Source: Chloroflexota bacterium (GTDB taxonomy: Bacteria; Chloroflexota; Anaerolineae; J102). Taken from it: DNA of 10,376 bases. Under the pieces are notes generated by a model. It did not search any database. It saw only the letters and a list, made by a program, of their open reading frames with translations, and was not told the DNA's origin. A program made the translations under genes and the position numbers. Where the stretch lies: positions 1 to 10,376 of the forward strand of contig PIVW01000187.1 in assembly GCA_003353825.1 (NCBI GenBank), written 5' to 3'. This document shows positions 1-10,376 of the stretch, one piece after another. The stretch's first letter is position 1, and each line of letters opens with the position of its first letter.

Positions 1-196
1 ATTTCGCGTGGTACGGATTTTTCCCACACTATATCTAGGCGCTTGACACAACCAGCCACTAGGTGTGGGGGAATCATCAACGGAAATTCGTGATCGTCAC
101 GCGAAGTCCCAAAGAGCCGTCATAATCTAATCCGTGTGTTTTGAAATTGGAATTGCTCTCCCTTGCGGCCAGGCAGCACCATAAGACCACTGTCGG

Positions 197-220
197 GACG
201 AGAGACGAGAGACGAGAGAC
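197..220. repeat. Heptamer tandem repeat (GACGAGA)x3.4
   Basis: Three perfect head-to-tail copies of GACGAGA (197-203, 204-210, 211-217) are followed by a partial GAC. It lies in non-coding DNA. The period of seven resembles the short tandem repeats of other spacers in this window (4598, 5219, 7217). No function can be assigned. Confidence 0.85.
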
Positions 221-293
221 AAATCCGCAAATTGCTTAAGTCGACCCTTGTACAAAACTCTGAACACTATTGATCTTCCTCATGCAGAACCAC

Positions 294-333
294 AAGCGTG
301 CTACAATATCAGTCCTGATATTGTAGCACGCTT
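294..333. repeat. Perfect 19-nt inverted repeat with 2-nt centre
   Basis: AAGCGTGCTACAATATCAG at 294-312 is repeated exactly in reverse complement at 315-333, separated only by TC. The 40-nt unit reads almost the same on both strands and could extrude a cruciform or form a 19-bp RNA hairpin. It begins two bases after the stop codon of the minus-strand ORF at 336-629, so it could act as that ORF's transcript end. However, no T-tract follows on either strand, which argues against a standard intrinsic terminator. A dimeric-repressor operator, a transcript stabiliser or a REP/MITE-like element are alternatives. Confidence 0.9.
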
Positions 334-335
334 AT

Positions 336-629
336 CTACATTTTGCTGTCGAAACAGCTTGCAGTTTGCTTACGAATTTCCGAAAGAATGTCTGACTTTA
401 GGCTAATGGTGTAATATAACTCGTATCTTCTCAATAACTTGGGGGGAACTAACCCGTCCATGAAGGTGGACGTTCGGCGTAGGTTCGTAGAACCCCGCCC
501 CCAGAGCCCGAATTCATTCGGCGAGTGCCCCGGAATATCGAGAAGATACAGCTGAACAATCGACATGTGCATTGATATGTTCATACCTTCCTGTACAAGC
601 AGGCGTGCTCCGATTGATCCACAGTTCAA
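336..629 (-). CDS. Unrecognised ORF, 97 aa, doubtful
   Basis: This open frame runs from a TTG codon at 627-629 to TAG at 336-338. I recognise no family. An AGGAAGG box lies only one base before an in-frame ATG (residue 16), so the start is uncertain; a later ATG about 13 nt downstream of that box is also possible. The C-terminal half is rich in basic and hydrophobic residues (LLRRYELYYTISL). The overlapping minus-strand frame at 514-813 also reads protein-like up to about position 625, where it could join this frame through one frameshift. The two may therefore be halves of one decayed gene. Three small hairpins (455-521) lie inside it, which could equally mean the region is not coding. A palindrome follows the stop. 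Confidence 0.2.
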   Translation of the reverse strand: MNCGSIGARLLVQEGMNISMHMSIVQLYLLDIPGHSPNEFGLWGRGSTNLRRTSTFMDGLVPPKLLRRYELYYTISLKSDILSEIRKQTASCFDSKM

Positions 630-735
630 AAATCAAAAAACAATCTTTGTAGTCCTGCCACTCCAAACATTGATATCGAGATGCCAGACTTGATATCTCC
701 TCCATCCATATATTTCGACCCGGATCTGGCGCCTC

Positions 736-980
736 ATGGTCATGAGGATTAGTCAATACCGCTTGGTCAACGACATTAGTGTTCCCCTGCGCCGAATTAA
801 TGAAATCGTGCAAGGTAAACGCAAAATCACGCCTGATACGGCATCTCGGCTGTCTCGTATTTCGGCTTTTCAGAACGATTCTGGATCAATTCTCAGTCGC
901 GTTATGATCTTGAGATCGAAAAAGACAGATTACATGATCGATAAGATAAGGAAGCGTGTATCTTTGCGTCGGCAACGTAG
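736..980 (+). pseudogene. higA: Broken HigA-type antitoxin (XRE-family HTH)
   Basis: The first part encodes ISQYRLVNDISVPLRRINEIVQGKR and then ITPDTASRLSR, which matches the helix-turn-helix core of HigA-family antitoxins. In working members this is followed by a YFG...FW.N.Q..YDLE segment. Here that segment (YFGFSERFWINSQSRYDLEI) is present but in another frame starting at 858. A single base has been lost near 857, in the third position of the Arg codon. In the restored frame a TAA at 942-944 interrupts HDR-DKEACIF, where a Leu TTA would fit. A natural stop TAG follows at 978-980. The usual N-terminal HPGE..LEEFL segment upstream of 736 is not recognisable. No HigB toxin gene is visible on either side. 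The unshifted frame stays open to 1023 but does not look like family sequence past residue 40. HigA normally neutralises the HigB ribosome-dependent mRNase and represses its own operon; this copy is probably inactive. Confidence 0.8.
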
Positions 981-1044
981 AAATCAATCTCTATTGCGCT
1001 TGAATTTGCAGCACAAGCTTTGAAGGCTGATGTAGTCTACGATG

Positions 1045-1084
1045 AAAAAGGGCCTGGCCGATTCAGGAAATCAGACCAGACCCT
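1045..1084 (-). terminator. Intrinsic terminator of the PA14/META operon
   Basis: Read on the minus strand, AGGGTCTGGTC pairs with GGCCAGGCCCT (11 bp, two G-U pairs). The stem continues through a one-base bulge into GATT/AATC and closes on a TCCTG loop. TTTTT follows directly. It lies 38 nt beyond the stop codon of the PA14-domain gene, in the right orientation to end that transcript. No T-run is present on the plus-strand side, so it should be one-directional. Confidence 0.9.
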
Positions 1085-1121
1085 ATGTTAGGTTGAATTG
1101 GCTATGAACTGCGCGATGACC

Positions 1122-1907
1122 CTATTTCGAGTACCGGCCAGCCAACGTCTTTGAACAACGGAAACTCTTGACGGTAACGGGATCGGTATTCACATCCACC
1201 GTCCAGGTCATATCGCTATCAGGTGGCTCGCAGTTACCCCAAACCGTGATCTCGGGTTCCATCTGGATCGAACCCACGTTGGGTGAATTCCAGGCGCCGT
1301 CCGACTGGAAGCAGTTGGATTGGTGCGAGTTATTTTGTATACAAGGGGTGTAGTCGCCGTACTTGGTCGTGACTGATGTCGCCGAGGGTGGCGGGGTAGG
1401 ATAGGGAAGCGGCTTGATCACAGGCGTGGGCGTTCCCTGCCCTGGTTTGATCAAACCCCAGGTCAGATAAAGATAGGCTTGTCCCGTGTACTGGCGGACA
1501 TCGACGCTGACATTATGGTTGCCCTGGGTCATGTTGATGTCGACCACCAGTGTCTTACCTGATTGCCCCTGCCCACGTGTGTCCAGATAAACGACGTTAT
1601 CGACGGTGAGCATGACTTCGTCATCCGCTTTGATGGTGTAACGGTAGGTGCCACTATAGAAATAAGCGGTAGAATAGGCGCGCGCCGTCCAGTTCTGTGA
1701 CGGCATGTTGGGGCCGGGCGCCGCTGATCCCCAGTTCATATTCAGAAAGGGGGCAGTCTGCGAATAGACCGGCGCACCCTGCCAGTTTTCATTGGGAAAG
1801 TAGTTGATCTGCCAAGAATTACCGCTCTGCGACTGCACGGCCATGGCGCCAACAAGAACCAAGGCCAGAACCGCTACAACGGCAGATATCAAAAGTATAC
1901 GTCTCAT
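1122..1907 (-). CDS. Secreted PA14-domain protein
   Basis: This 261-aa exported protein starts at an ATG preceded by AAGGAGA at ideal spacing. Residues 1-23 form a Sec signal peptide (MRRILL, hydrophobic core, AMA before the likely cleavage site). Residues about 31-152 read as a PA14 domain: WQINYFPNENWQGAP opening, the typical ADDEVMLTVDN turn near 94-104, and closing strands ending YLYLTWG. PA14 domains usually bind carbohydrate or act as cell-surface modules. A Pro/Thr-rich linker (about 155-178) leads to a C-terminal segment of about 80 residues with four cysteines (189, 199, 226, 251), probably two disulfides in the exported form. I do not recognise that segment. No catalytic domain is visible, so a binding or adhesion role is more likely than an enzyme. 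It lies 53 nt downstream of the META lipoprotein gene and probably shares its transcript, which ends at 1045-1084. Confidence 0.87.
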   Translation of the reverse strand: MRRILLISAVVAVLALVLVGAMAVQSQSGNSWQINYFPNENWQGAPVYSQTAPFLNMNWGSAAPGPNMPSQNWTARAYSTAYFYSGTYRYTIKADDEVMLTVDNVVYLDTRGQGQSGKTLVVDINMTQGNHNVSVDVRQYTGQAYLYLTWGLIKPGQGTPTPVIKPLPYPTPPPSATSVTTKYGDYTPCIQNNSHQSNCFQSDGAWNSPNVGSIQMEPEITVWGNCEPPDSDMTWTVDVNTDPVTVKSFRCSKTLAGRYSK

Positions 1908-1960
1908 GAGAATTCTCCTTTTCGTTCAGCTATTGTGCGCTGAAACCGTTGTAGGTTGGG

Positions 1961-3739
1961 TTATTGGGTAGCTGCCGGAGCGAGCACATCGGGAGATTGA
2001 TCAAGGCTGGTGACGGTCAATACACCACTGACCGGCGCTTCCGGATTCAATCGTCCCACATAAACGGCATACTGTCCTTTGGCCGGATCGCTGATCAGCA
2101 CCAGGGGGTTGATGTTCTCAGCGGCGACTGTATCATCGTTGCAGAGGATGCGTTGGTCAGCAGTCACAACCAATAAGGAGGCATCCGTTTCCCCTTCGAA
2201 GAAGATCGCCAGCTCTGCTGCCGCACCCGACCAGTCGAAGAGGTAATCGGGCGTCTCGTTGATGAAGCCAGAACATCGGTCCCCAACCAACGGGATCTCA
2301 TGGGCGGCGATCTCACCTTCAGCGCTGACCTCAACCTTCGCAGCTTCCTCGTCAGAGGCGGAGAGCGAGCCAACTTCACCTTCATACCCTTCAATGGAAG
2401 CGATCACCCTCTGGGCGATTTCCTGGCCTTCCGGGGTTTGCAATATCTCGGGAATGGAGTCACGGCGAATGAGCCCGCCCAGATCAAAATTGCCGATATT
2501 GACTTCGGGCTTGGTGGTGAGCACCAAGACGCCGGGGAGCAACTGATTCGGGTGGAAACTGCCGACCCAGATGTTGTAGGTACCCGATTCGGGATTTTCC
2601 ACCTCGATCACCGGATCCAGCAGTAGGGGATTGGCGTCATCATTGCACAAGTACTCGCCATCCGGTGTCTGGATGATAAGCATCGGATCATGGTCGCTAT
2701 AGAAGAACACTTCCACGAAATCGGTCTCCCCTTCCCAGTCGATGCTCAAAACCGGTTCTTGATGCACCCAACCTGAGCAGCCATCACCCAGGCGACTGGC
2801 ATCCAACTCACCCCCCCCATTGACACTAACGAAGAAGGGATCCAGGGGGAACCCGGCTTCGAGATCAAGGGTGAGGAAAGCGCGGCCGCCGTGATCGAGC
2901 GGCATGGCCGCCGCAGTTCGGCGATTGAGGGGAAGGTCTTCGGTTCCGTAGAAAACGTAACCATGATCCTCAGCAATGAGACGGTCGCCATCCAGCACGA
3001 AATTGAATTCGAGTGGCTCATCATAAGGCTCACCATTGCTCTCCAGCAATGTGATCACCACGTCCTCGCCATCTCGCTCCCAAACACCTGTTTCCAGGGC
3101 AGGGTCGCTGTCATTCAACGAATCGACGGTCACTTCCACGGTGCCATCGGCCGCTGGGACCAGGGTCACATAGCGTCCGGGGCTGTCGTCAGAAGGTAGT
3201 AAGGCATGGAACTTGGCAACGATATCAGCATCAGCATTCTCTGTATCGCTGTCTTCAGCGTCGCTCTCTGAACCGGCCTCGCCGAAGATCATATTTCCGC
3301 CATCTGCCATCATATTGAGGATCAGGTTGCCTTCATTTATTACGTAAGAGGCGGTGGCGCCCAACTGGGCCAGATACTCATCTGCCAACGAGTCGGGTGG
3401 ACAGGCGGCCAAAGTTGATGGTCCCAAGGTGTTGAATGTGAGGCTGGCGCCATCGACTTCATAGGTCCAGCTTACCTGGTTGCAGTCTGCTTTGATGCTG
3501 GCCCTACCATCGGGCATGAACTCGATAGTGTAGCGGCCGGGGTCGTCCACCGTGAGGGTGGAGTCATCGCTGCTGGCTGTTTCTTGCCAATGCCAGACCA
3601 CGCCGACGAAGTCGGGTGATTCGGCCTGCACTGCCACTGAATCTGCCTGCACCGTTGCGCCGCAACCTGAGACGAGCGCGGCAAGCAGAATCAAGCCCAG
3701 TGCCACAACGAGAGTCTGGGATGTTGGTGGTTTGTTCAT
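1961..3739 (-). CDS. META-domain lipoprotein with two PPC-like repeats
   Basis: This is a 592-aa predicted lipoprotein. The signal peptide ends in a lipobox LVSGC with Cys26 as lipidation site. Residues about 43-153 match the META (HslJ-type) fold: WHWQET, RYTIEFMPDGRASIKADCN, and Cys86/Cys113 as a likely disulfide. An acidic linker (155-172) precedes a second small beta domain (about 172-272, RYVTLVPAADG...GVWERDGEDVVITL) reminiscent of NlpE/META-like lipoprotein domains; that call is weak. Two copies of a beta-sandwich module resembling bacterial pre-peptidase C-terminal (PPC) domains follow at about 320-410 and 488-578. Each has CSG(W/F), a central LCNDD and a final G-Y-x-(I/V)-(W/Y)-V-G...GVL. 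The cysteine pairs 321/365 and 489/533 have identical 44-residue spacing. AGGAGG lies 13 nt before the ATG, rather far but usable. Probably surface-exposed; substrate or ligand unknown. A promoter lies upstream and a PA14 gene follows in the same direction. Confidence 0.88.
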   Translation of the reverse strand: MNKPPTSQTLVVALGLILLAALVSGCGATVQADSVAVQAESPDFVGVVWHWQETASSDDSTLTVDDPGRYTIEFMPDGRASIKADCNQVSWTYEVDGASLTFNTLGPSTLAACPPDSLADEYLAQLGATASYVINEGNLILNMMADGGNMIFGEAGSESDAEDSDTENADADIVAKFHALLPSDDSPGRYVTLVPAADGTVEVTVDSLNDSDPALETGVWERDGEDVVITLLESNGEPYDEPLEFNFVLDGDRLIAEDHGYVFYGTEDLPLNRRTAAAMPLDHGGRAFLTLDLEAGFPLDPFFVSVNGGGELDASRLGDGCSGWVHQEPVLSIDWEGETDFVEVFFYSDHDPMLIIQTPDGEYLCNDDANPLLLDPVIEVENPESGTYNIWVGSFHPNQLLPGVLVLTTKPEVNIGNFDLGGLIRRDSIPEILQTPEGQEIAQRVIASIEGYEGEVGSLSASDEEAAKVEVSAEGEIAAHEIPLVGDRCSGFINETPDYLFDWSGAAAELAIFFEGETDASLLVVTADQRILCNDDTVAAENINPLVLISDPAKGQYAVYVGRLNPEAPVSGVLTVTSLDQSPDVLAPAATQ

Positions 3740-3780
3740 AAAATTGGGTATTCCTCCTGTGAGGGAATTTGGACAAGACC

Positions 3781-3809
3781 ATATTAGTGGAATGTCTAGG
3801 ACTTGTCAG
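3781..3809 (-). promoter_or_regulatory. Sigma-70-type promoter of the META lipoprotein gene
   Basis: On the minus strand, CTGACA (3809-3804, five of six matches to TTGACA) is separated by 17 bases from TAATAT (3786-3781, a close match to TATAAT). Transcription would start around 3773, giving a 5' leader of about 35 nt that contains the AGGAGG ribosome-binding site. Orientation and position fit the 3739-1961 gene. Confidence 0.65.
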
Positions 3810-4431
3810 TCAGATTGCTTTGCATGTTATGTCAGGTGTGTTCAGTAATGCAAATTATTTCTGGCATGCCAACAGGCGCGGCCTTTGATATCGGCAATCA
3901 AGCGCCATCAGGTAAGAAACCACCTGTGGTCGTCGCCAAGATGGCCGCGGCAGCAGGTTATCAACACCCTCCAGCGTCGTATAGACGAGTGGTTGCTGAG
4001 CTGTACCACGATCTTCTGAGGCCGACCCCTCTGCCGCCAGTTCGCGATACACACCGCCGCTCAGAGGTGTTTCACCCAAGGCAGTGTGTTATGGGACGCT
4101 GCTTCTGAACCATGCCCTTTTTGGGTTATTTTGACCCACCACAGAATCCAGTAGAACTAGAAAAATCATCTACCCTTCTGATCCATGGTGAAGTGTTTAA
4201 TACTTCACTAAATTAGTATAAGTGATATGCCTGCGGAATTTTGTAGTTCGGTGAACACTTTGTGCCGCAGGTTACGAAGTGAGGCAATGACAGCCCGAAA
4301 TTGGTGAAGAATCGAGAGAGCGTAGAAGCAAGCTCGGGTCTCAAGAAGACAGGATCGTGATGTTTTTGTGTGGGATTTTTGTTCATCGGTGTGCCAAGCC
4401 CAGTGCACACTATCCAAAGCACTGCAATATA
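3810..4431. other. Intergenic region, no gene recognised
   Basis: About 620 nt lie between the META promoter and the tRNA. Short open frames exist on both strands (for example minus 4079-3855 and plus 3803-4108). None has recognisable family motifs, a good ribosome-binding site or a plausible partner. Visible structure is limited to a small stem TGGGT/ACCCA at 4122-4138 and a 9-bp imperfect hairpin TGGTGAAGT/ACTTCACTA at 4186-4210. Neither is followed by a convincing T-tract. The part just past the tRNA 3' end could be remnant DNA from past integration, but no attachment-site duplication of the tRNA end is seen in the window. Confidence 0.5.
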
Positions 4432-4505
<74 letters not shown>

Positions 4506-4517
4506 GATAGCCTGCAA

Positions 4518-4546
4518 ATTATGCCATATCGGCCATTCCGTGGCAA
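4518..4546 (-). promoter_or_regulatory. Promoter of tRNA-Val
   Basis: On the minus strand, TTGCCA (4546-4541) and CATAAT (4523-4518) are separated by exactly 17 bases, each with five of six matches to the sigma-70 consensus. The -10 box ends 12 bases before the mature tRNA 5' end, leaving room for a short leader to be removed by RNase P. Confidence 0.75.
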
Positions 4547-4597
4547 GATTGTCGGGTCTGACCGACAGATCGTTTGCGAAAATCTGATCCAGGTTGG

Positions 4598-4627
4598 AAC
4601 CAGTAAACCAGTAAACCAGTAAACCAG
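4598..4627. repeat. Octamer tandem repeat (AACCAGTA)x3.75
   Basis: Three exact copies of AACCAGTA (4598-4605, 4606-4613, 4614-4621) and a partial fourth (AACCAG) run head to tail in non-coding DNA. The core CCAG also occurs just before the array (CCAGG at 4589-4593). Same style of short-period repeat as in the other spacers of this window. Confidence 0.88.
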
Positions 4628-4843
4628 GTTGATTTCGCCACCTTGCTCGTCTTGGCGACCTATCCCGGTCTGTGGGTCTACCGATACCTGGTCTATAGAT
4701 GTTCAGAAAAAGATTTTGACTTTTGGCCTGATCCTCACGCTTGCCAAAAGGCTACTTTGTCCAAAACATTATCTGAAGGTCTATACAAAGATGCTCCACA
4801 TTTGAAATACTAAATCTAGCTTCAGAAGAACTCAGATCAACCA

Positions 4844-5104
4844 ATGCGCCATTTCAACAGAGGCTCGGCCCTCGTTTTCATATTCATCATCGTCGTCGCA
4901 GCCCTTAGCATTCGCTGGACTTACCAGCGGGTGGAAGGGCGCTATCAACCACAATTCAATGAATTGACCGAGTATACAGTGGATGACTGGCTGGAGGTGC
5001 TACGGCTGGAGGAGATCTTGGGCGATCCCCCCGTGACGCCCCTTTCCGCCGACCAGTTGCCTCTCTTGAGCACGCCTTCCTCAGAATCAGATAGCAATCC
5101 TTAA
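4844..5104 (+). CDS. Small putative membrane-anchored protein
   Basis: An 86-aa open frame runs from ATG to TAA. Residues 1-7 are positively charged (MRHFNRG) and are followed by one strongly hydrophobic segment (about 9-25, ALVFIFIIVVAALSI). An acidic soluble part (EYTVDDWLEVLRLEEILGD) and a Pro/Ser-rich tail follow. The pattern is that of a single-pass protein, N-terminus inside, or of a protein with an uncleaved signal anchor. I do not recognise a family. The ribosome-binding site is weak (AGAAG about 15 nt upstream) and no clear promoter is seen, so the gene call rests mainly on the ordered hydrophobic/charged layout. It is the only plus-strand gene candidate between two minus-strand units, so it is unlikely to belong to either operon. 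Confidence 0.45.
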   Translation: MRHFNRGSALVFIFIIVVAALSIRWTYQRVEGRYQPQFNELTEYTVDDWLEVLRLEEILGDPPVTPLSADQLPLLSTPSSESDSNP

Positions 5105-5218
5105 GGTTACGTTGGTCGTGGAGTAGAATCGCCGGTTGCATCCGCTACAGCATCCCGAAGGAACTGCTTATGCATGGGTGCTCTTCGTGGCCGAACGTCT
5201 CGTCAGACGACCAACAAA

Positions 5219-5246
5219 TAACAGCCAATAATTAACAGTCAACAAT
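5219..5246. repeat. Degenerate 14-nt (2 x 7) tandem repeat
   Basis: TAACAGCCAATAAT (5219-5232) is followed directly by TAACAGTCAACAAT (5233-5246), identical at 12 of 14 positions. GAACATCAAAC continues the pattern weakly. Internal 7-nt spacing is apparent. The array lies in the 200-nt spacer between the small plus-strand gene and the end of the minus-strand operon. A short CGTCT/AGACG hairpin is nearby at 5196-5209. Confidence 0.7.
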
Positions 5247-5304
5247 GAACATCAAACCGCACAGCGAGCGCCATCTGCTAACTGCTGGCGGCTAACCCCT
5301 TCCC

Positions 5305-6591
5305 TCACCGCTGCGGATGCACAGCCAGGTACTGTTCGAGGATGTTCACCGTCGGTCCGCCAATCTCAAAGGAGTGCCAGCCTTGTGGCCCGGCCAGCGC
5401 GTAGATTGTTGCCCCCAGCACATAGTCATCTTTCATCAACTCGGCGTCGTACCAGGCCAGTTGCTCGACATAAAAACCCTCTTCGGTGGTACTGACACCG
5501 CCCTGTTCCCGCCACCACCGGCCAAAATCCTGCCAGCCCAGTCCCTCCGGTCCCGGGCGGTTGCCGACCTGGCCGTCGATACCGGTTTCGGTTATCACGA
5601 GGGGGATATCGAGGCCGTTTGGAGAGAGGAAGTTTCTGTAGACTTTGCGATAGCGCAAAGTGAGCCAGCCTTCGTCACCTTCGTCGCTACCCTCGGCAAG
5701 CTGGTGGGGACCGCTGGCGAACCACATATAGGGCGCCGAATATTCATGGAGACTGAGGTAGCCACCCCATGCTTTCGCAGCCTCCAGCGCTGGGAAAAAC
5801 GCAGGCCAAAGTTCCAGTGAGGGTTGTCCCGTACTGAAGTTGCCCACACAGGAGCGAACGCCCATTTCAGCCAGCAGGCGCGTGCGTTCTGCCTCGAATT
5901 GCGCATAACTCGCCATCTGCTCGGCATTGGAGATAACTGGCTCGTTATACGATTCCCAGCAATCTATATTGGCCAGGCGCCGTGGTTCAGTGGCAATCGG
6001 CGCCACTAGATCGGCAAATGTCTGGGCGGCGGCGATAGGATCCCACTGATTTAGGTCGGGTAATGGCAATGGTGTGTAGCGGGCGACAATCAGGGTTTGG
6101 GGCGAGATCCGTTTGATCTCGGCCACGAAATTGGCATCATACTCCAGTGTCTTGATCACCGAGACATTGCCGGTTTCGAGCAAGTCGAATATCTGCGGAT
6201 CGTTGCGCCCCACGAATAACCCGAGTTTAGAAGGAGGTCCGGGTGGGAAGGGCGTTGCTGATGGGGTCGGAGTGGCGGTAGGGATCGGTGAAGGGGTCGG
6301 GGTGGGCGTTGCTGCTTGAGCCTGAACAACGGGTTTTACCAGGATTTCCTGTTCTGTCATCACCAGGGGTTGGTGGGATTCGAAAATCGTCTCGACAGTA
6401 CTCGTACTCGTCGCCGTTGCTAAAACAGTCTTCGTGGCCGTGGCTGTTGCCGTGGGGGTCTGTGTGCGCCCACATCCAACCAGAGTGATTGTCAGCAAGA
6501 TCGCTATCAGCAGTCCCCATCGACTGTAGTCGCGTCTCAGCCGGTTCCCGTTATCTCCCCAATCCAGTGCCCCTATGTTTGAGGCAACCAT
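5305..6591 (-). CDS. Lipoprotein resembling a clan GH-A glycoside hydrolase
   Basis: This 428-aa exported protein has a hydrophobic signal (about 25-37) ending in lipobox LVGC, with Cys40 for lipid attachment. A long Thr/Ala/Pro-rich tether (TPTATATATKT, then TPTPTPSPIPTATPTP, to about 120) leads to a catalytic-type domain at about 121-428. That domain has features of a TIM-barrel glycosidase of clan GH-A. W-E-S-Y-N-E217-P fits the end-of-strand-4 acid/base Asn-Glu pair, H282-E283-Y284 is an active-site-like aromatic/His segment, and I-T-E335-T-G fits the strand-7 nucleophile. Substrate and GH family cannot be named from sequence alone. The ATG directly abuts the stop codon of the shell protein gene (TAA-ATG) with no clear Shine-Dalgarno, and the 24-residue region before the hydrophobic segment is long for a signal peptide. 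A downstream non-ATG start, or re-initiation after the shell gene, is possible. It would act outside the cytoplasm, so a direct role in the microcompartment is unlikely despite the shared transcript. Confidence 0.8.
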   Translation of the reverse strand: MVASNIGALDWGDNGNRLRRDYSRWGLLIAILLTITLVGCGRTQTPTATATATKTVLATATSTSTVETIFESHQPLVMTEQEILVKPVVQAQAATPTPTPSPIPTATPTPSATPFPPGPPSKLGLFVGRNDPQIFDLLETGNVSVIKTLEYDANFVAEIKRISPQTLIVARYTPLPLPDLNQWDPIAAAQTFADLVAPIATEPRRLANIDCWESYNEPVISNAEQMASYAQFEAERTRLLAEMGVRSCVGNFSTGQPSLELWPAFFPALEAAKAWGGYLSLHEYSAPYMWFASGPHQLAEGSDEGDEGWLTLRYRKVYRNFLSPNGLDIPLVITETGIDGQVGNRPGPEGLGWQDFGRWWREQGGVSTTEEGFYVEQLAWYDAELMKDDYVLGATIYALAGPQGWHSFEIGGPTVNILEQYLAVHPQR

Positions 6592-7176
6592 TTATCGCCG
6601 AATCAGCCTCTCGAATCTGCTAGATGCCAACAGATTCTCTGCCAATTCCTCGTGCAGTTGCGAGATCACCCTGGCCTCGAGCAGTTGGCCTGAGCCCAAT
6701 ACCCCGGTGCCTATCTCGACCGCGGCCTCGACATCAGCCACCCATCCCCCCAAAAAGACCAGACCTTTTCCGCCCATTCCATCAGATAGTCTTATTTCCA
6801 GCAGGGTGACATCGGCCCCTTTGAGAGCGGCGTCCGCCGCTGCTATTGCCGCCGGCGCCATTGTGGTTTCGATTATTCCCAGGGCGGCGATGGGCGATGT
6901 ATCCCTGTGACCCGCTATCCCCTCGAACACCTGAGGATGGATGTCCGGCAACAATATTTGACCTCGTAGACTGCTGCCTCCCACTGCATTTGCCGCCTCG
7001 ACCGCTTCCTCTACCGGCGCCACCCCCCCTATCACCACAACCAAATAGCGGCCGGGCTGCACAGTGCCGCCGGCGATCCCATCCACAGGCGCGCGTTTCA
7101 CCATAGCATCGGCTGAAACTATACCGGCGGCGATGCTATCGAATTCTAGTAGTGCGAGGGCTGGGGGGTGGGGCAT
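6592..7176 (-). CDS. PduT-like tandem-domain microcompartment shell protein (BMC-T)
   Basis: This 194-aa protein is built of two BMC domains. Domain 1 (about 5-92) has ALALLEFDSIAAGIVSADAMVKRAPV, then PGRYLVVVIGGVAPVEEAVEAA. Domain 2 (about 95-175) has ALGIIETTMAPAAIAAADAALKGADV, then GGKGLVFLGGWVADVEAAVEIG. Two such domains per chain make pseudo-hexameric trimers that tile the shell. Resemblance to PduT runs from end to end: LLPDIHPQVFEGIAG between the domains matches PduT's LANIHPSVLPAISG, and the C-terminal HEEL region also aligns. PduT binds an Fe-S cluster at the three-fold pore through Cys38 in ICPGKF. Here the equivalent is VQPGRY with Gln40, so that cluster should be absent. No Shine-Dalgarno is evident before the ATG. 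The gene lies 131 nt after the aldehyde dehydrogenase gene, and its stop codon abuts the next start. Confidence 0.93.
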   Translation of the reverse strand: MPHPPALALLEFDSIAAGIVSADAMVKRAPVDGIAGGTVQPGRYLVVVIGGVAPVEEAVEAANAVGGSSLRGQILLPDIHPQVFEGIAGHRDTSPIAALGIIETTMAPAAIAAADAALKGADVTLLEIRLSDGMGGKGLVFLGGWVADVEAAVEIGTGVLGSGQLLEARVISQLHEELAENLLASSRFERLIRR

Positions 7177-7307
7177 GGATTTGCGTAGTCGTTTGGTCGG
7201 GTGATGCGACGCGATAACTTGTCTACTTGTCTACTTGTCTACTTGTTTACCTATTACTTGTCTACTCATTACCAAAACTCATCAATTCAGCACAACATGC
7301 GCTCGAA
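7177..7307 (-). other. 131-nt leader between aldehyde dehydrogenase and BMC-T genes
   Basis: This is the only sizeable gap in an otherwise closely packed operon. It contains the octamer array at 7217-7263 and then about 40 nt of C/A-rich sequence without a Shine-Dalgarno before the shell gene. No clear stem with a T-run and no strong promoter is visible. It could set different expression of the shell protein by a processing site, an internal promoter or mRNA structure; all are inference. Confidence 0.45.
7217..7263. repeat. Octamer tandem repeat (ACTTGTCT)
   Basis: Three perfect copies of ACTTGTCT (7217-7224, 7225-7232, 7233-7240) are followed by a one-mismatch copy ACTTGTTT (7241-7248), a diverged seven-base copy, and another perfect copy at 7256-7263. 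On the transcribed strand of the operon the unit reads AGACAAGT. It is located between two genes of the microcompartment string. Confidence 0.88.
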
Positions 7308-8792
7308 TTACACTATTCTAAAATGATCGACAAGTGTGCAGCGGCGAGGTCTACTGAAGCTGAGGGCGTTGGTCATACCTTCGCCGGTGGGGCTGGCGAT
7401 AGAAAAGGAGGTGTAGCCTTCACCACCGAAACCGAGCCCGGCCAGGTTGGGACCGTTCTTGATGAAGATCGAGACATTTATCAGCCTGGCCATACGCGAG
7501 AGATTGTCGATGTTGCGCGAGTGCATCGATGCTGTGTGGCCGAAACCATGTTCCGCTTCCACCGCCAGATCGATGCCTTCGTCGGCCGAGCGTACGCGAG
7601 CCAGGGGGAAAACAGGCATCAGTTGCTCGGTCCACACCAGGGGGTGATCGACAGGCACATCCACCAGGGCCAGGCGGGCGTCAGCTGCATTGATGCCGAT
7701 CTCTTTGAGGATAAGACCGGCATTCTTGCCCACCCACTCTTTGTTGGTCACGCCCGCTTGACGTGGCCCGCGCAACTCTTTGAAGATCACATTTTCCAAT
7801 GACCTGATCCGATGTTTGGGCACCTCTACAGCGCCATTGGCCAACATCGCCTGTTTAAGTGCATCTGCCACGCTGTCGACTACAAAAACCTCTTTTTCGT
7901 CGGTGCAGATTACGTTATTGTCAAAGGAGGCGCCGAAGAGAATATCCCGACCTGCCTGATCGATATCAGCGGACTCATCAACCACCACCGGGGGGTTTCC
8001 AGGACCGGCGCAGATCGCGCGCTTGCCACTCTGCATCGCTTCACGCACGACGCCCGGGCCACCGGTGACGAGAAGCAAGCGCACACCGGGGTGGCGCATC
8101 AACGCTTGCGCGCTTTCGACGGTTGGCTCGGCAGGGGCAGTCAAAAGGTCTGCTGGGCCACCTACGGCGACGATTGCCTGATTCAGGGCCTGGATGACTG
8201 TGTTAGAAATATGTCGAGCACCGGGATGGACATTGAATACTGCGGCATTGCCGGCGGAGATGATGCCGATGCTGTTGTTAATGATCGTGGCCGTGGGATT
8301 GGTGCTGGGTGTGATCGAAGCCACCACACCATAGGGGGCCCATTCCACCAGCGTCAAGCCTCTATCACCTGTCCAGGCAGAAGGCTGTAGTAATTCGGGG
8401 CCTGGCGATTTATCGGCGACTAGCAAGTTCTTCTTGGTCTTGTCTTCAGCACGGCCCAACCCCGTCTCTTCATGGGCCATACGCGCCCACAATTCAGCAT
8501 TATGACGTGTGATATCACGGACCGCATCGATCAATATCCTGCGCTCTTCTAATGTTATCCCGTTCAGCGCAGTAAAGGCCCGCCTTGCAGCAGCAACAGC
8601 ACTGTCGATGTCAGGATAGATGCCATCACGGCCCGATGAGATTGTGCTATCGAGCCTGCGCCCGCTGCGGCCCACATACGATAGATGAGGCGCCCTGTTG
8701 GGGTTAGCTTGTGGGGCAGGGGTAGGGTGTCCGGCTCGTTCTAGGACGCGCCGGCTAATACTTTCAATCTGCTGGTCGCTCAGTGTACTCAT
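7308..8792 (-). CDS. CoA-acylating aldehyde dehydrogenase, PduP/EutE-like
   Basis: This 494-aa protein is full length for the microcompartment aldehyde dehydrogenases that convert an aldehyde plus CoA and NAD+ to acyl-CoA. Seen: NAD-binding segment with PYGVVASITPSTNP (about 153-166) and GNAAVFNVHPGA, the glycine turn VTGGPGVV (242-249), CAGPGNPPVVVD, and the catalytic cysteine Cys296 in FDNNVICTDEKEVFVVD, closely matching PduP/EutE. The C-terminal half keeps GFGHTASMHS and the GLGFGGEGYTSFSIASPTGEG segment. Residues 5-20 (SDQQIESISRRVLERA) form a predicted amphipathic helix, separated from the enzyme by a Pro-rich linker (22-35). This is the layout of a shell-targeting encapsulation peptide. 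Its ATG overlaps the stop of the vertex protein gene (ATGA), with AGGAAGG just upstream, so translation is coupled. Substrate chain length cannot be read from the sequence. The partner enzymes that would make the aldehyde and recycle NAD+ and CoA are not in view. Confidence 0.95.
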   Translation of the reverse strand: MSTLSDQQIESISRRVLERAGHPTPAPQANPNRAPHLSYVGRSGRRLDSTISSGRDGIYPDIDSAVAAARRAFTALNGITLEERRILIDAVRDITRHNAELWARMAHEETGLGRAEDKTKKNLLVADKSPGPELLQPSAWTGDRGLTLVEWAPYGVVASITPSTNPTATIINNSIGIISAGNAAVFNVHPGARHISNTVIQALNQAIVAVGGPADLLTAPAEPTVESAQALMRHPGVRLLLVTGGPGVVREAMQSGKRAICAGPGNPPVVVDESADIDQAGRDILFGASFDNNVICTDEKEVFVVDSVADALKQAMLANGAVEVPKHRIRSLENVIFKELRGPRQAGVTNKEWVGKNAGLILKEIGINAADARLALVDVPVDHPLVWTEQLMPVFPLARVRSADEGIDLAVEAEHGFGHTASMHSRNIDNLSRMARLINVSIFIKNGPNLAGLGFGGEGYTSFSIASPTGEGMTNALSFSRPRRCTLVDHFRIV

Positions 8793-9082
8793 GCGTCCTT
8801 CCTGTACTTCTCATCACCATCGACCTCCCAAGTATCGATGATGGCCATGATCACGGCATCGCAGGGCCGCTTATCTGTTTGCAGGGTCTGGCGGGCAGAG
8901 GAACCTGTGGCATAAAGCACATATTCGCCAACACCTGCCCCTACGGCATCGGCGGCGACCACATAATTCGAACCGGTCTCGCCCTCGATATCCACCGCTT
9001 TGACGACCATAAATCTCAAGCCGGTGAGACTTTCTTCTTTCTGTGTAGAAACCAATGTTCCCACGATTTTGCCTATGACCAT
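8789..9082 (-). CDS. Microcompartment vertex protein (BMC-P, EutN/CcmL family)
   Basis: This 97-aa protein is the usual size for the pentameric shell proteins that cap the twelve vertices of a bacterial microcompartment. Family features seen: MVIGKIVGTLVST opening strand, GLRFMVVKAVD, the AADAVGAGVGEYVLYATGSSAR core (about 43-64), and DAVIMAIIDTWEV near the C-terminus. A short charged tail follows. It starts four bases after the MBL-fold gene and ends in a 4-nt ATGA overlap with the aldehyde dehydrogenase gene, so all three should be made from one message. The ribosome-binding site is weak, which fits coupling to the upstream gene and the low vertex stoichiometry. The family also includes carboxysomal CcmL/CsoS4; the neighbouring PduP-like enzyme makes a metabolosome the better reading. 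Confidence 0.95.
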   Translation of the reverse strand: MVIGKIVGTLVSTQKEESLTGLRFMVVKAVDIEGETGSNYVVAADAVGAGVGEYVLYATGSSARQTLQTDKRPCDAVIMAIIDTWEVDGDEKYRKDA

Positions 9083-9086
9083 AAGC

Positions 9087-9782
9087 TTACTCGTTCAGCA
9101 ATTGGATGAATGTGTTGACGGTATTTTTGGCATCGGATAGGATAGGAGGTCCATGCCCAAAACAGATGATCTCGTAGTCAAGTGTGCGCAATTTATCGAG
9201 GCTGTCAACGGTTTGCGCATAGTCAGGAGTAAACAGTTTTGGCGGCATCCTCAGCTTACCATCACGATTACTCAGGGCATCGCCTGTAATCAAGAGCTTG
9301 CGCTCAGCATGAAATAGGGCGATCTGGCCTGGCGAATGTCCGGGCATATGCAATACCGCAAAACCCCCCGGCAGAACCTGGCCTTGGATAACCAGGGTGT
9401 CGATTTCGATCGGGTCGGGCTTGTATCGGCGGTTAAGCAGGAGGACGGCGGGTCGAATCAGGTAGCCCGCCAAACTGGGGTTGGGCCGTTTAACTTTGAG
9501 TCCTTTAACATAAGCTTTTTCTACAGCGTGGCAGCAGATCGGAGTTTGATGTTCGCCTAAGATCACGGGCAATCCACCTACATGGTCGATATCCGCATGA
9601 GTGATAATGATGCTTTGCAGATCTTTGGGGTGGATATCGACGCTCGCCATTTCCTGCAGCAGCGTCCTGCTAGACCAGGGTAAACCTGTATCGATCAGCG
9701 TGGGGCCACCTGTGCCGGTCCAAAGATAGGCGTTGACACCGTTGAGGGCGATGAGTTGCAGATCGGGCACTATCGTTTCCAA
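9087..9782 (-). CDS. MBL-fold metallo-hydrolase
   Basis: A 231-aa metallo-beta-lactamase-fold protein. Metal-site residues in order: T-H62-A-D64-I-D66-H67-V-G-G (motif 2), H149 in MPGHSPGQ, D168 in LLITGDAL and H210 in CFGHGPP. The second histidine of the usual HxHxDH signature is Asp here (HxDxDH), a variant that other MBL proteins also carry. General layout is glyoxalase II/lactonase-like, and such proteins hydrolyse thioesters, lactones or phosphoesters; the substrate cannot be named. Translation starts at TTG (9782-9780), immediately after the TAG of the pyrophosphatase gene. GGGAGG seven bases upstream lies inside that gene's last codons, so the start is well supported and coupled. The vertex protein gene follows after four bases. 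Co-transcription with shell genes could mean it removes an unwanted thioester or aldehyde adduct. That is speculation. Confidence 0.9.
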   Translation of the reverse strand: METIVPDLQLIALNGVNAYLWTGTGGPTLIDTGLPWSSRTLLQEMASVDIHPKDLQSIIITHADIDHVGGLPVILGEHQTPICCHAVEKAYVKGLKVKRPNPSLAGYLIRPAVLLLNRRYKPDPIEIDTLVIQGQVLPGGFAVLHMPGHSPGQIALFHAERKLLITGDALSNRDGKLRMPPKLFTPDYAQTVDSLDKLRTLDYEIICFGHGPPILSDAKNTVNTFIQLLNE

Positions 9783-10328
9783 CTACAATCCTCCCAGGCC
9801 GAAACGTTCCTGATAGGATTGCATCGCTTGCCGGATAGTCTGCTTCGCCCGATCAGCCCCTTGCCACCCACCTATTGTCACCCGGCCACCCTCTTCCAGA
9901 TCCTTGTAGACACTGAAAAAGTGGGCGACTTCTGACAAGAAGTGTTTGGGGACATCGTCCAGATCACGGTAATCCCTGAAGATGGGGTCACCGCTGGGAA
10001 CGGCAAGGATCTTGTCATCTGATTCGCCCCGATCTTCCATGCTGAAAACGCCAATCGGGCGGGCCTCGATTATGCAGCCGGGGAAGGTGGGTTGATTGAC
10101 CATGACCAGGATATCGAAGGGGTCGCCATCCTCCCAATAGGTTTGCGGCATCAGTCCATAGTCCCCAGGATACGATACAGAGGAATAGAGGACACGATCT
10201 AGCTTTAAAACCCCATGTTCTTTGTTGTATTCATATTTGTTGCGCGATCCTTTGGGGATCTCGATGATAGCATAAACGATCTCGGGGGCATCGGGGCCGG
10301 TACGAAGGTCTCGCCACAGGTTCTGCAT
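9783..10328 (-). CDS. ppa: Inorganic pyrophosphatase, family I
   Basis: This 181-aa protein has the length and motifs of prokaryotic soluble family I pyrophosphatases, which hydrolyse PPi to two phosphates with Mg2+. Seen: EIPKGSRNKYEYNKEHG (about 23-39) for substrate binding, YPGDYGLMPQT (53-63), the signature EDGDPFDILV (D67, D69 and D72), and MEDRGESDDK with D99, D104 and K106. D67, D72 and D104 correspond to the metal ligands Asp65, Asp70 and Asp102 of the E. coli enzyme. All key residues are kept, so it should be active in the cytoplasm. AGAGG nine bases before the ATG supports the start. It is the first gene of the string visible here; its last codons supply the ribosome-binding site of the MBL gene. 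Whether it serves the compartment pathway (pulling a PPi-forming ligase step) or is a housekeeping gene caught upstream cannot be decided. The upstream 48 nt are pyrimidine-rich on the coding strand, with no clear promoter. Confidence 0.95.
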   Translation of the reverse strand: MQNLWRDLRTGPDAPEIVYAIIEIPKGSRNKYEYNKEHGVLKLDRVLYSSVSYPGDYGLMPQTYWEDGDPFDILVMVNQPTFPGCIIEARPIGVFSMEDRGESDDKILAVPSGDPIFRDYRDLDDVPKHFLSEVAHFFSVYKDLEEGGRVTIGGWQGADRAKQTIRQAMQSYQERFGLGGL

Positions 10329-10376
10329 AAGAGAATGCCTCTGAAAGGGGGGCGAAGGGTAGGGTACTGTGGGAGG

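Follow-up and report, generated by a model that had tools for sequence, protein, structure and literature searches.

Shell-protein and aldehyde dehydrogenase genes at a Chloroflexota contig end as the probable downstream section of a metabolosome operon of the SPU type

The locus and its question

Can a metabolosome be built without the hexameric shell protein BMC-H and without a signature enzyme to supply its aldehyde? The question was raised by a 10,376-base stretch of DNA from a Chloroflexota bacterium (assembly GCA_003353825.1, contig PIVW01000187.1, positions 1 to 10,376; hereafter, the window), which appears to be a complete contig, its length being equal to that of the longest contig listed for its BMC-T protein. 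An initial annotation had described in it a bacterial microcompartment (BMC) vertex protein (BMC-P), an acylating aldehyde dehydrogenase (AldDH) and a PduT-like BMC-T, all co-directional, and had offered three explanations for the missing parts: the locus continues past position 10376, it is split across the genome, or it represents a variant without BMC-H whose aldehyde source is undefined. Our analysis indicated that the window is very probably the downstream part of a Chloroflexota metabolosome operon of the sugar phosphate utilizing (SPU) type, cut by the contig end. Our verdict is that of an ordinary SPU locus end at a contig boundary, with a few features worth noting.

The three genes were confirmed by family models (PF03319, NF011927 and PF00936, respectively), and all lie on the minus strand, where the order of transcription is pyrophosphatase, metallo-beta-lactamase (MBL)-fold hydrolase, BMC-P, AldDH, BMC-T and a lipoprotein-like gene. 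The features are as follows, with L001 denoting the locus of the closest relative found.

10365..10376, no strand: contig edge; BMC-H stop codon expected about 5 bases beyond, by the L001 alignment
9783..10328, minus: family I inorganic pyrophosphatase (PF00719, E 1.5e-59); first complete gene on the contig
9087..9782, minus: MBL-fold metallo-hydrolase (PF00753, E 3.6e-34); TTG start codon immediately following the stop of the pyrophosphatase gene
8789..9082, minus: BMC-P (EutN/CcmL) vertex pentamer (PF03319, E 5.2e-30); closest solved structure 5v74, 4.3e-29
7308..8792, minus: coenzyme A (CoA)-acylating AldDH of the PduP/EutE family (NF011927, 618 bits, cut-off 403); matches to solved AldDHs reach 2.8e-124; 4-base overlap with the BMC-P gene
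6592..7176, minus: two-domain BMC-T with PduT-like fold (PF00936 in two stretches, E 8.6e-33); 3nwg, 1.9e-31
5305..6591, minus: lipoprotein-like gene, starting on the base that follows the BMC-T stop codon

Upstream genes in relatives

The genes upstream of the contig edge were inferred from relatives. Loci were collected around relatives of the AldDH, and the best 80 of 166 were taken, giving, together with the window, 81 sequences that all hold an AldDH; many are cut contigs, so gene counts are limited by contig reach. Genome-wide searches covered 12 close genomes of relatives and, for PduL and the satellite-type aldolase, 40 wider ones. The relatives' genomes are possibly incomplete drafts, and single absences in them are therefore weak.

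The closest relative, Chloroflexi bacterium Bse_26 (L001), shared 92.6% DNA identity with the window over 3,112 + 1,909 aligned bases. Window position 10364 aligned to L001 position 8431, the window's last base corresponded to approximately L001 8419, and the stop codon of an L001 BMC-H gene (PF00936, 1.3e-30) occupied 8412-8414, this gene being the one directly upstream of the pyrophosphatase. Further upstream in L001 were a CcmP-like double BMC-T (best solved match CcmP, PDB 5lsr, 2.2e-92), a DeoC whose best solved match was a deoxyribose-phosphate aldolase (4e-83), and an RpiB matching a solved ribose-5-phosphate isomerase (2.1e-43) and PF02502 (3.9e-51). The close Chloroflexota loci L003-L011 kept this order over the stretch that each contig covers. 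The full main locus of the relatives thus reads RpiB, DeoC, CcmP-like BMC-T, BMC-H, pyrophosphatase and MBL hydrolase (neither always present), BMC-P1, AldDH and PduT-like BMC-T, and the window's core looks stripped because its contig ends there.

The suggestion that the locus continues past position 10376 was therefore supported. The reported lack of BMC-H and of a signature enzyme describes the 10,376 bases correctly but is uninformative on the locus, as both lie upstream in relatives. The proposed variant without BMC-H and with an undefined aldehyde source was not sustained, as BMC-H and DeoC lie upstream of the pyrophosphatase in L001. The initial annotation had itself held that BMC-H and a known signature enzyme directly upstream of the pyrophosphatase would speak against such a variant, and this arrangement was found, in relatives and not in the window's own genome. 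We consider it extremely improbable that the window represents a distinct minimal BMC type truly lacking both components. Besides the contig itself, such a type could call on G002, one of the 12 close draft genomes, in which only a PduT-like gene and no BMC-H was found. However, a single-domain BMC frame occurred in 11 of the 12 close genomes, BMC-H lay near AldDH in 64 of the 81 sequences and directly upstream of the pyrophosphatase in L001, and the minimal type would need loss of the upstream half in a genome more than 92% identical to L001. A false lead, that of a BMC without hexamers, is thereby removed, and the fragment is assigned to a widespread organelle type.

Assignment to SPU loci

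SPU loci were named by Axen in 2014 and described by the combination of DeoC, RpiB and AldDH (PMC4207490, passages on SPU). With Sutter in 2021 the type grew to seven subtypes (SPU1-SPU7) and over 280 loci from 26 phyla; Anaerolineae were listed among the hosts, carrying SPU6, and DNA detritus was proposed as the substrate (PMC8217296, passages on SPU). As the relatives' DeoC, RpiB and AldDH are the SPU signature, the locus was assigned as a Chloroflexota member of this type. A DeoC-type aldolase (PF01791) was present in L001 and 48 further loci and an RpiB-type isomerase (PF02502) in the relatives, both off the window's contig; of the remaining parts, AldDH, BMC-P and one BMC-T are in the window, while BMC-H and the second BMC-T are in L001. 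The likeness extends to the predicted use of DNA-derived deoxyribose-5-phosphate.

Among the 81 sequences, BMC-H was counted in 64, CcmP-like BMC-T in 57, DeoC in 49, PduT-like BMC-T in 73 and BMC-P in 78. Every DeoC locus (49/49) also held BMC-H and AldDH, and 46 of the 49 held RpiB, separate or fused; the remaining three contigs begin at DeoC. BMC genes and EutN genes were each found in all 12 close genomes.

Several observations accompany these genes. RpiB and DeoC formed a single fused frame of 445-512 amino acids in 14 loci (L012, L015, L018, L019, L021, L022, L026, L031, L032, L035, L043, L055, L059 and L060). A signal peptidase I gene (L001:4511-5281) lay directly upstream of RpiB in all six close Chloroflexota loci with RpiB (L001, L003-L007). 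The N-terminal extension of DeoC (L001:6062-6976) carried four cysteines, C-x2-C followed by C-x-G-x-C, in all seven close Chloroflexota loci with DeoC (L001, L003-L007 and L011) and, by a looser pattern, in 17 of the 49 DeoC loci; it was lacking in the more distant Chloroflexota L025, L028, L034, L036, L039 and L049. The motif suggests a possible metal or Fe-S site. Apart from its SPU locus, the genome of L008 had BMC and EutN domains clustered at a second site (G008:C222:14558-16443).

The likeness to EUT and PDU systems is confined to an EutE/PduP-family AldDH and shell proteins. No ethanolamine lyase, diol dehydratase, PduL or alcohol dehydrogenase was present among the examined genes of the window and L001, alcohol dehydrogenase (PF00465) not having been searched genome-wide. 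The description of the BMC-T as PduT-like held only for its two-domain fold (3nwg). Against the PduT model TIGR02526, the protein scored 88.6 bits, below the cut-off of 250.3, and it has Gln in place of Cys at PduT position 38. In that column, the 71 sequences compared (those below 80 bits against the window's BMC-T were excluded) showed 35 Gln, 26 His, 10 others and no Cys. Residue 38 of PduT, Cys38, is one that we take to be a ligand of the [4Fe-4S] cluster. As the window's trimer has no Cys at this position, a PduT-style electron path through it is unlikely on residue grounds. A coordinating cysteine in PduT is also stated in a passage of PMC4207490.

Subtype assignment was divided. By the wording of PMC8217296 on SPU, the CcmP-like BMC-T fits the SPU2/SPU3/HO clade rather than SPU6, while the same paper gives Anaerolineae SPU6. 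The main-locus gene order may already be catalogued as an SPU subtype.

Proposed function and CoA recycling

As DeoC is part of the relatives' SPU loci, the aldehyde source is most likely deoxyribose-phosphate aldolase making acetaldehyde. From gene content, gene order and homology, the following encapsulation, substrate and flux can be proposed. DNA-derived nucleosides would be phosphorolysed in the cytosol; a pyrimidine-nucleoside phosphorylase scored above the cut-off in all 12 close genomes. The resulting deoxyribose-5-phosphate would enter the shell, probably via the gated CcmP-like trimer, and DeoC would cleave it to glyceraldehyde-3-phosphate and acetaldehyde. AldDH inside the shell would convert acetaldehyde to acetyl-CoA and NADH, keeping the toxic aldehyde contained, and acetyl-CoA or its product would exit without PduL. 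DeoC, RpiB and AldDH have N-terminal extensions ahead of their catalytic domains that look like encapsulation peptides; in the window's AldDH, approximately 43 residues precede the part alignable to solved enzymes and possibly form such a peptide.

Some points weigh against this account of the window as part of a deoxyribose-phosphate-degrading SPU organelle. The contig itself carries no BMC-H, DeoC or RpiB, and these genes were inferred from relatives. Four loci (L014, L016, L020 and L069) had no DeoC match despite at least 4 kb upstream of the CcmP-like BMC-T; these belong to Planctomycetota (three) and Myxococcota (one), with AldDH identity of at most 61%, and therefore not every relative of the window's AldDH sits in an SPU locus. 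At least one relative, G001, has a separate DeoC beside a nucleoside phosphorylase (G001:C25), indicating that deoxyribose breakdown is possible without the organelle. Finally, a hydrophobic-moment test against 2000 shuffles was not significant for any of the three extensions, with 237 (AldDH), 261 (DeoC) and 978 (RpiB) shuffles as high, so that the case for encapsulation peptides is one of position and conservation only. The MBL hydrolase (568/2000) and the pyrophosphatase (326/2000) were run in the same test.

PduL (PF06130) was found in none of the 12 close genomes and in only one of the 40 wider ones, leaving 51 of the 52 searched without a match, and 37 of the 40 wider genomes have DeoC in the locus. 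As a control of the search, PF06130 was found in two of 14 control genomes. The absence from the close genomes differs from the presence of PduL in two of three SPU phyla reported in the passages on SPU in PMC4207490; the SPU passage of PMC8217296 does not name PduL as a requirement. As to other routes, phosphate acetyltransferase (PF01515) was present in six of the 12 close genomes, although not in G001, the closest, and ADP-forming acetyl-CoA synthetase scored above the cut-off in four and only below it in the other eight. Neither was therefore retained as a single route of CoA recycling, as neither fits all 12 close genomes.

A satellite locus with two vertex proteins and an aldolase

The idea of a locus split across the genome held in one part. 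BMC-H, DeoC and RpiB are in the relatives' main locus; however, two further BMC-P genes lie apart from it with a class II aldolase. A further EutN site was found on another contig in 11 of the 12 close genomes, as a pair in 10 and as a single gene in G001, and was not found in G007. In all 11 satellites, a EutN gene was followed by a class II aldolase. Four of these aldolases (L081, L083, L088 and L092) were assigned to PF00596 by Pfam, and the domain could be aligned in all 11. All 11 (L081:2012-2782, L083:169-936 and nine others) also carried a conserved cysteine-rich, CGVC-like C-terminal tail.

A tree of 194 EutN rows, including the 21 satellite proteins and the window's BMC-P, showed three groups, with the window's protein in one and the satellite proteins, 11 and 10, in the other two. 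Deep support was partly weak (0.0 for the branch to the window's group; 0.78 and 0.96 for the next branches inside). By its place in the tree, the window's BMC-P falls among the P1 proteins, the first members of BMC-P triplets. Such a triplet, three paralogues in three clades, was found in the genomes of relatives. The published SPU descriptions differ in this respect from the present lineage, in which P2 and P3 lie in the satellite with the class II aldolase.

Satellite linkage is not universal, as an aldolase of the satellite type sits inside the main locus in four of the 81 sequences (L018, L019, L021 and L069). A profile built from eight of the 11 satellite aldolases was run on 41 further genomes, namely the 40 wider ones and G007, which had none. 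Matches at E 1e-40 came from 12 of the 41, and in three of those 12 the aldolase adjoined the P-P pair of the main locus. The split is also not unique to this Chloroflexota lineage, as a P-P pair apart from P1 occurred in G031 and G043 (on another contig) and in G013 (approximately 19 kb away).

A satellite of this kind recalls the organelle of Haliangium ochraceum (HO). The best solved match of the window's BMC-P is 5v74, which we take to be an HO shell structure, and the same entry holds 'HO-5816'. Both systems also share a double BMC-T, and a satellite with two BMC-P genes and an aldolase has been reported for HO type I (PMC8217296, HO passage). The BMC-P triplet, as in HO, was found in the relatives. 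However, the two signature enzymes of SPU, DeoC and RpiB, are both encoded in the relatives' main loci; in HO, according to PMC8217296, PF01791 is restricted to some genomes, where it lies elsewhere than the BMC locus. An HO-type organelle in place of an SPU one is thus very unlikely.

The satellite aldolase drew many weak NCBIfam matches, those listed all scoring far under their cut-offs. For the L081 enzyme, the best was 3-oxo-tetronate 4-phosphate decarboxylase, at 103.5 bits against a cut-off of 250; the best solved relatives were named only 'Aldolase', followed by L-fuculose-phosphate aldolases. Of the proteins run in the hydrophobic-moment test, the satellite class II aldolase alone stood out (28/2000 shuffles as high), a result that was not used, as the stretch is rich in Gly and Ser and not helical-looking. 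We tentatively raise the possibility, to which we give somewhat less than an even chance, that this lineage builds its SPU organelle from two unlinked loci fed by two aldolases, DeoC and the satellite class II enzyme, and recovers CoA without a PduL-type phosphotransacylase. The satellite aldolase would then cleave, for example, 5-deoxyribulose-1-phosphate or fuculose-1-phosphate, supplying the same AldDH with acetaldehyde or lactaldehyde. The conserved satellite of pentamer genes with an aldolase, together with the lack of PduL in 51 of 52 genomes searched, sharpens the question of CoA recycling in metabolosomes whose core is incomplete. These features also hint, in a way open to testing, that a single SPU shell might process two sugar phosphates.

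Pyrophosphatase and MBL hydrolase between BMC-H and BMC-P

A further difference from SPU loci as published is the presence of a pyrophosphatase and/or an MBL hydrolase between BMC-H and P1. In 54 of the 64 loci holding both BMC-H and BMC-P, the gap to the first BMC-P gene was at most 292 bases. The other 10, all from Chloroflexota, had gaps of 576 to 2,018 bases, with a pyrophosphatase in six (in the window's position in L001, L003, L007, L008, L010 and L011) and an MBL hydrolase in nine. The insert was absent from six other Chloroflexota loci of the 64 (L025, L028, L034, L036, L039 and L049), and therefore marks a sub-lineage. The best solved relative of the MBL hydrolase was hydroxyacylglutathione hydrolase (1.3e-12), family-library matches being otherwise generic.

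Phosphate for phosphorolysis may come from the pyrophosphatase, or the enzyme may have nothing to do with the organelle. That both genes are unrelated housekeeping genes that landed in the operon, which would be compatible with an SPU assignment, is in our estimate evenly balanced. Each gene is dispensable, four of the 10 insert loci lacking the pyrophosphatase and one the MBL gene, and by eye neither product carries an N-terminal extension of the kind present in DeoC, RpiB and AldDH. The pyrophosphatase was also the sole PF00719 gene in seven of the eight genomes having one. On the other hand, a copy adjoined BMC-H in all eight genomes having the soluble enzyme, and an H+-pyrophosphatase was present in 11 of the 12 close genomes, indicating that the soluble form usually supplements another pyrophosphatase and does not act alone.

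No paper on this arrangement was found in searches of the open-licence literature. Relative to the published SPU passages, the features that go beyond them are the insert, the satellite with two BMC-P genes, the absence of PduL and the PduT-like trimer without the cluster cysteine of PduT.

Other features of the window

The lipoprotein-like gene (5305-6591) had no match in Pfam, NCBIfam or solved structures. Of the 80 loci, just L001 and L003 yielded a counterpart, many contigs being too short to judge, and the gene was not taken as part of the organelle system. Further along the contig, positions 1122-3739 encode a PA14-domain protein and a META/PPC-domain protein and positions 4432-4505 a tRNA-Val(cac); these show no evident connection with the organelle. 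The spacer between the AldDH and BMC-T genes contains an 8-base tandem repeat, ACTTGTCT, in 6.4 copies (window 7217-7266), at which the L001 alignment breaks.

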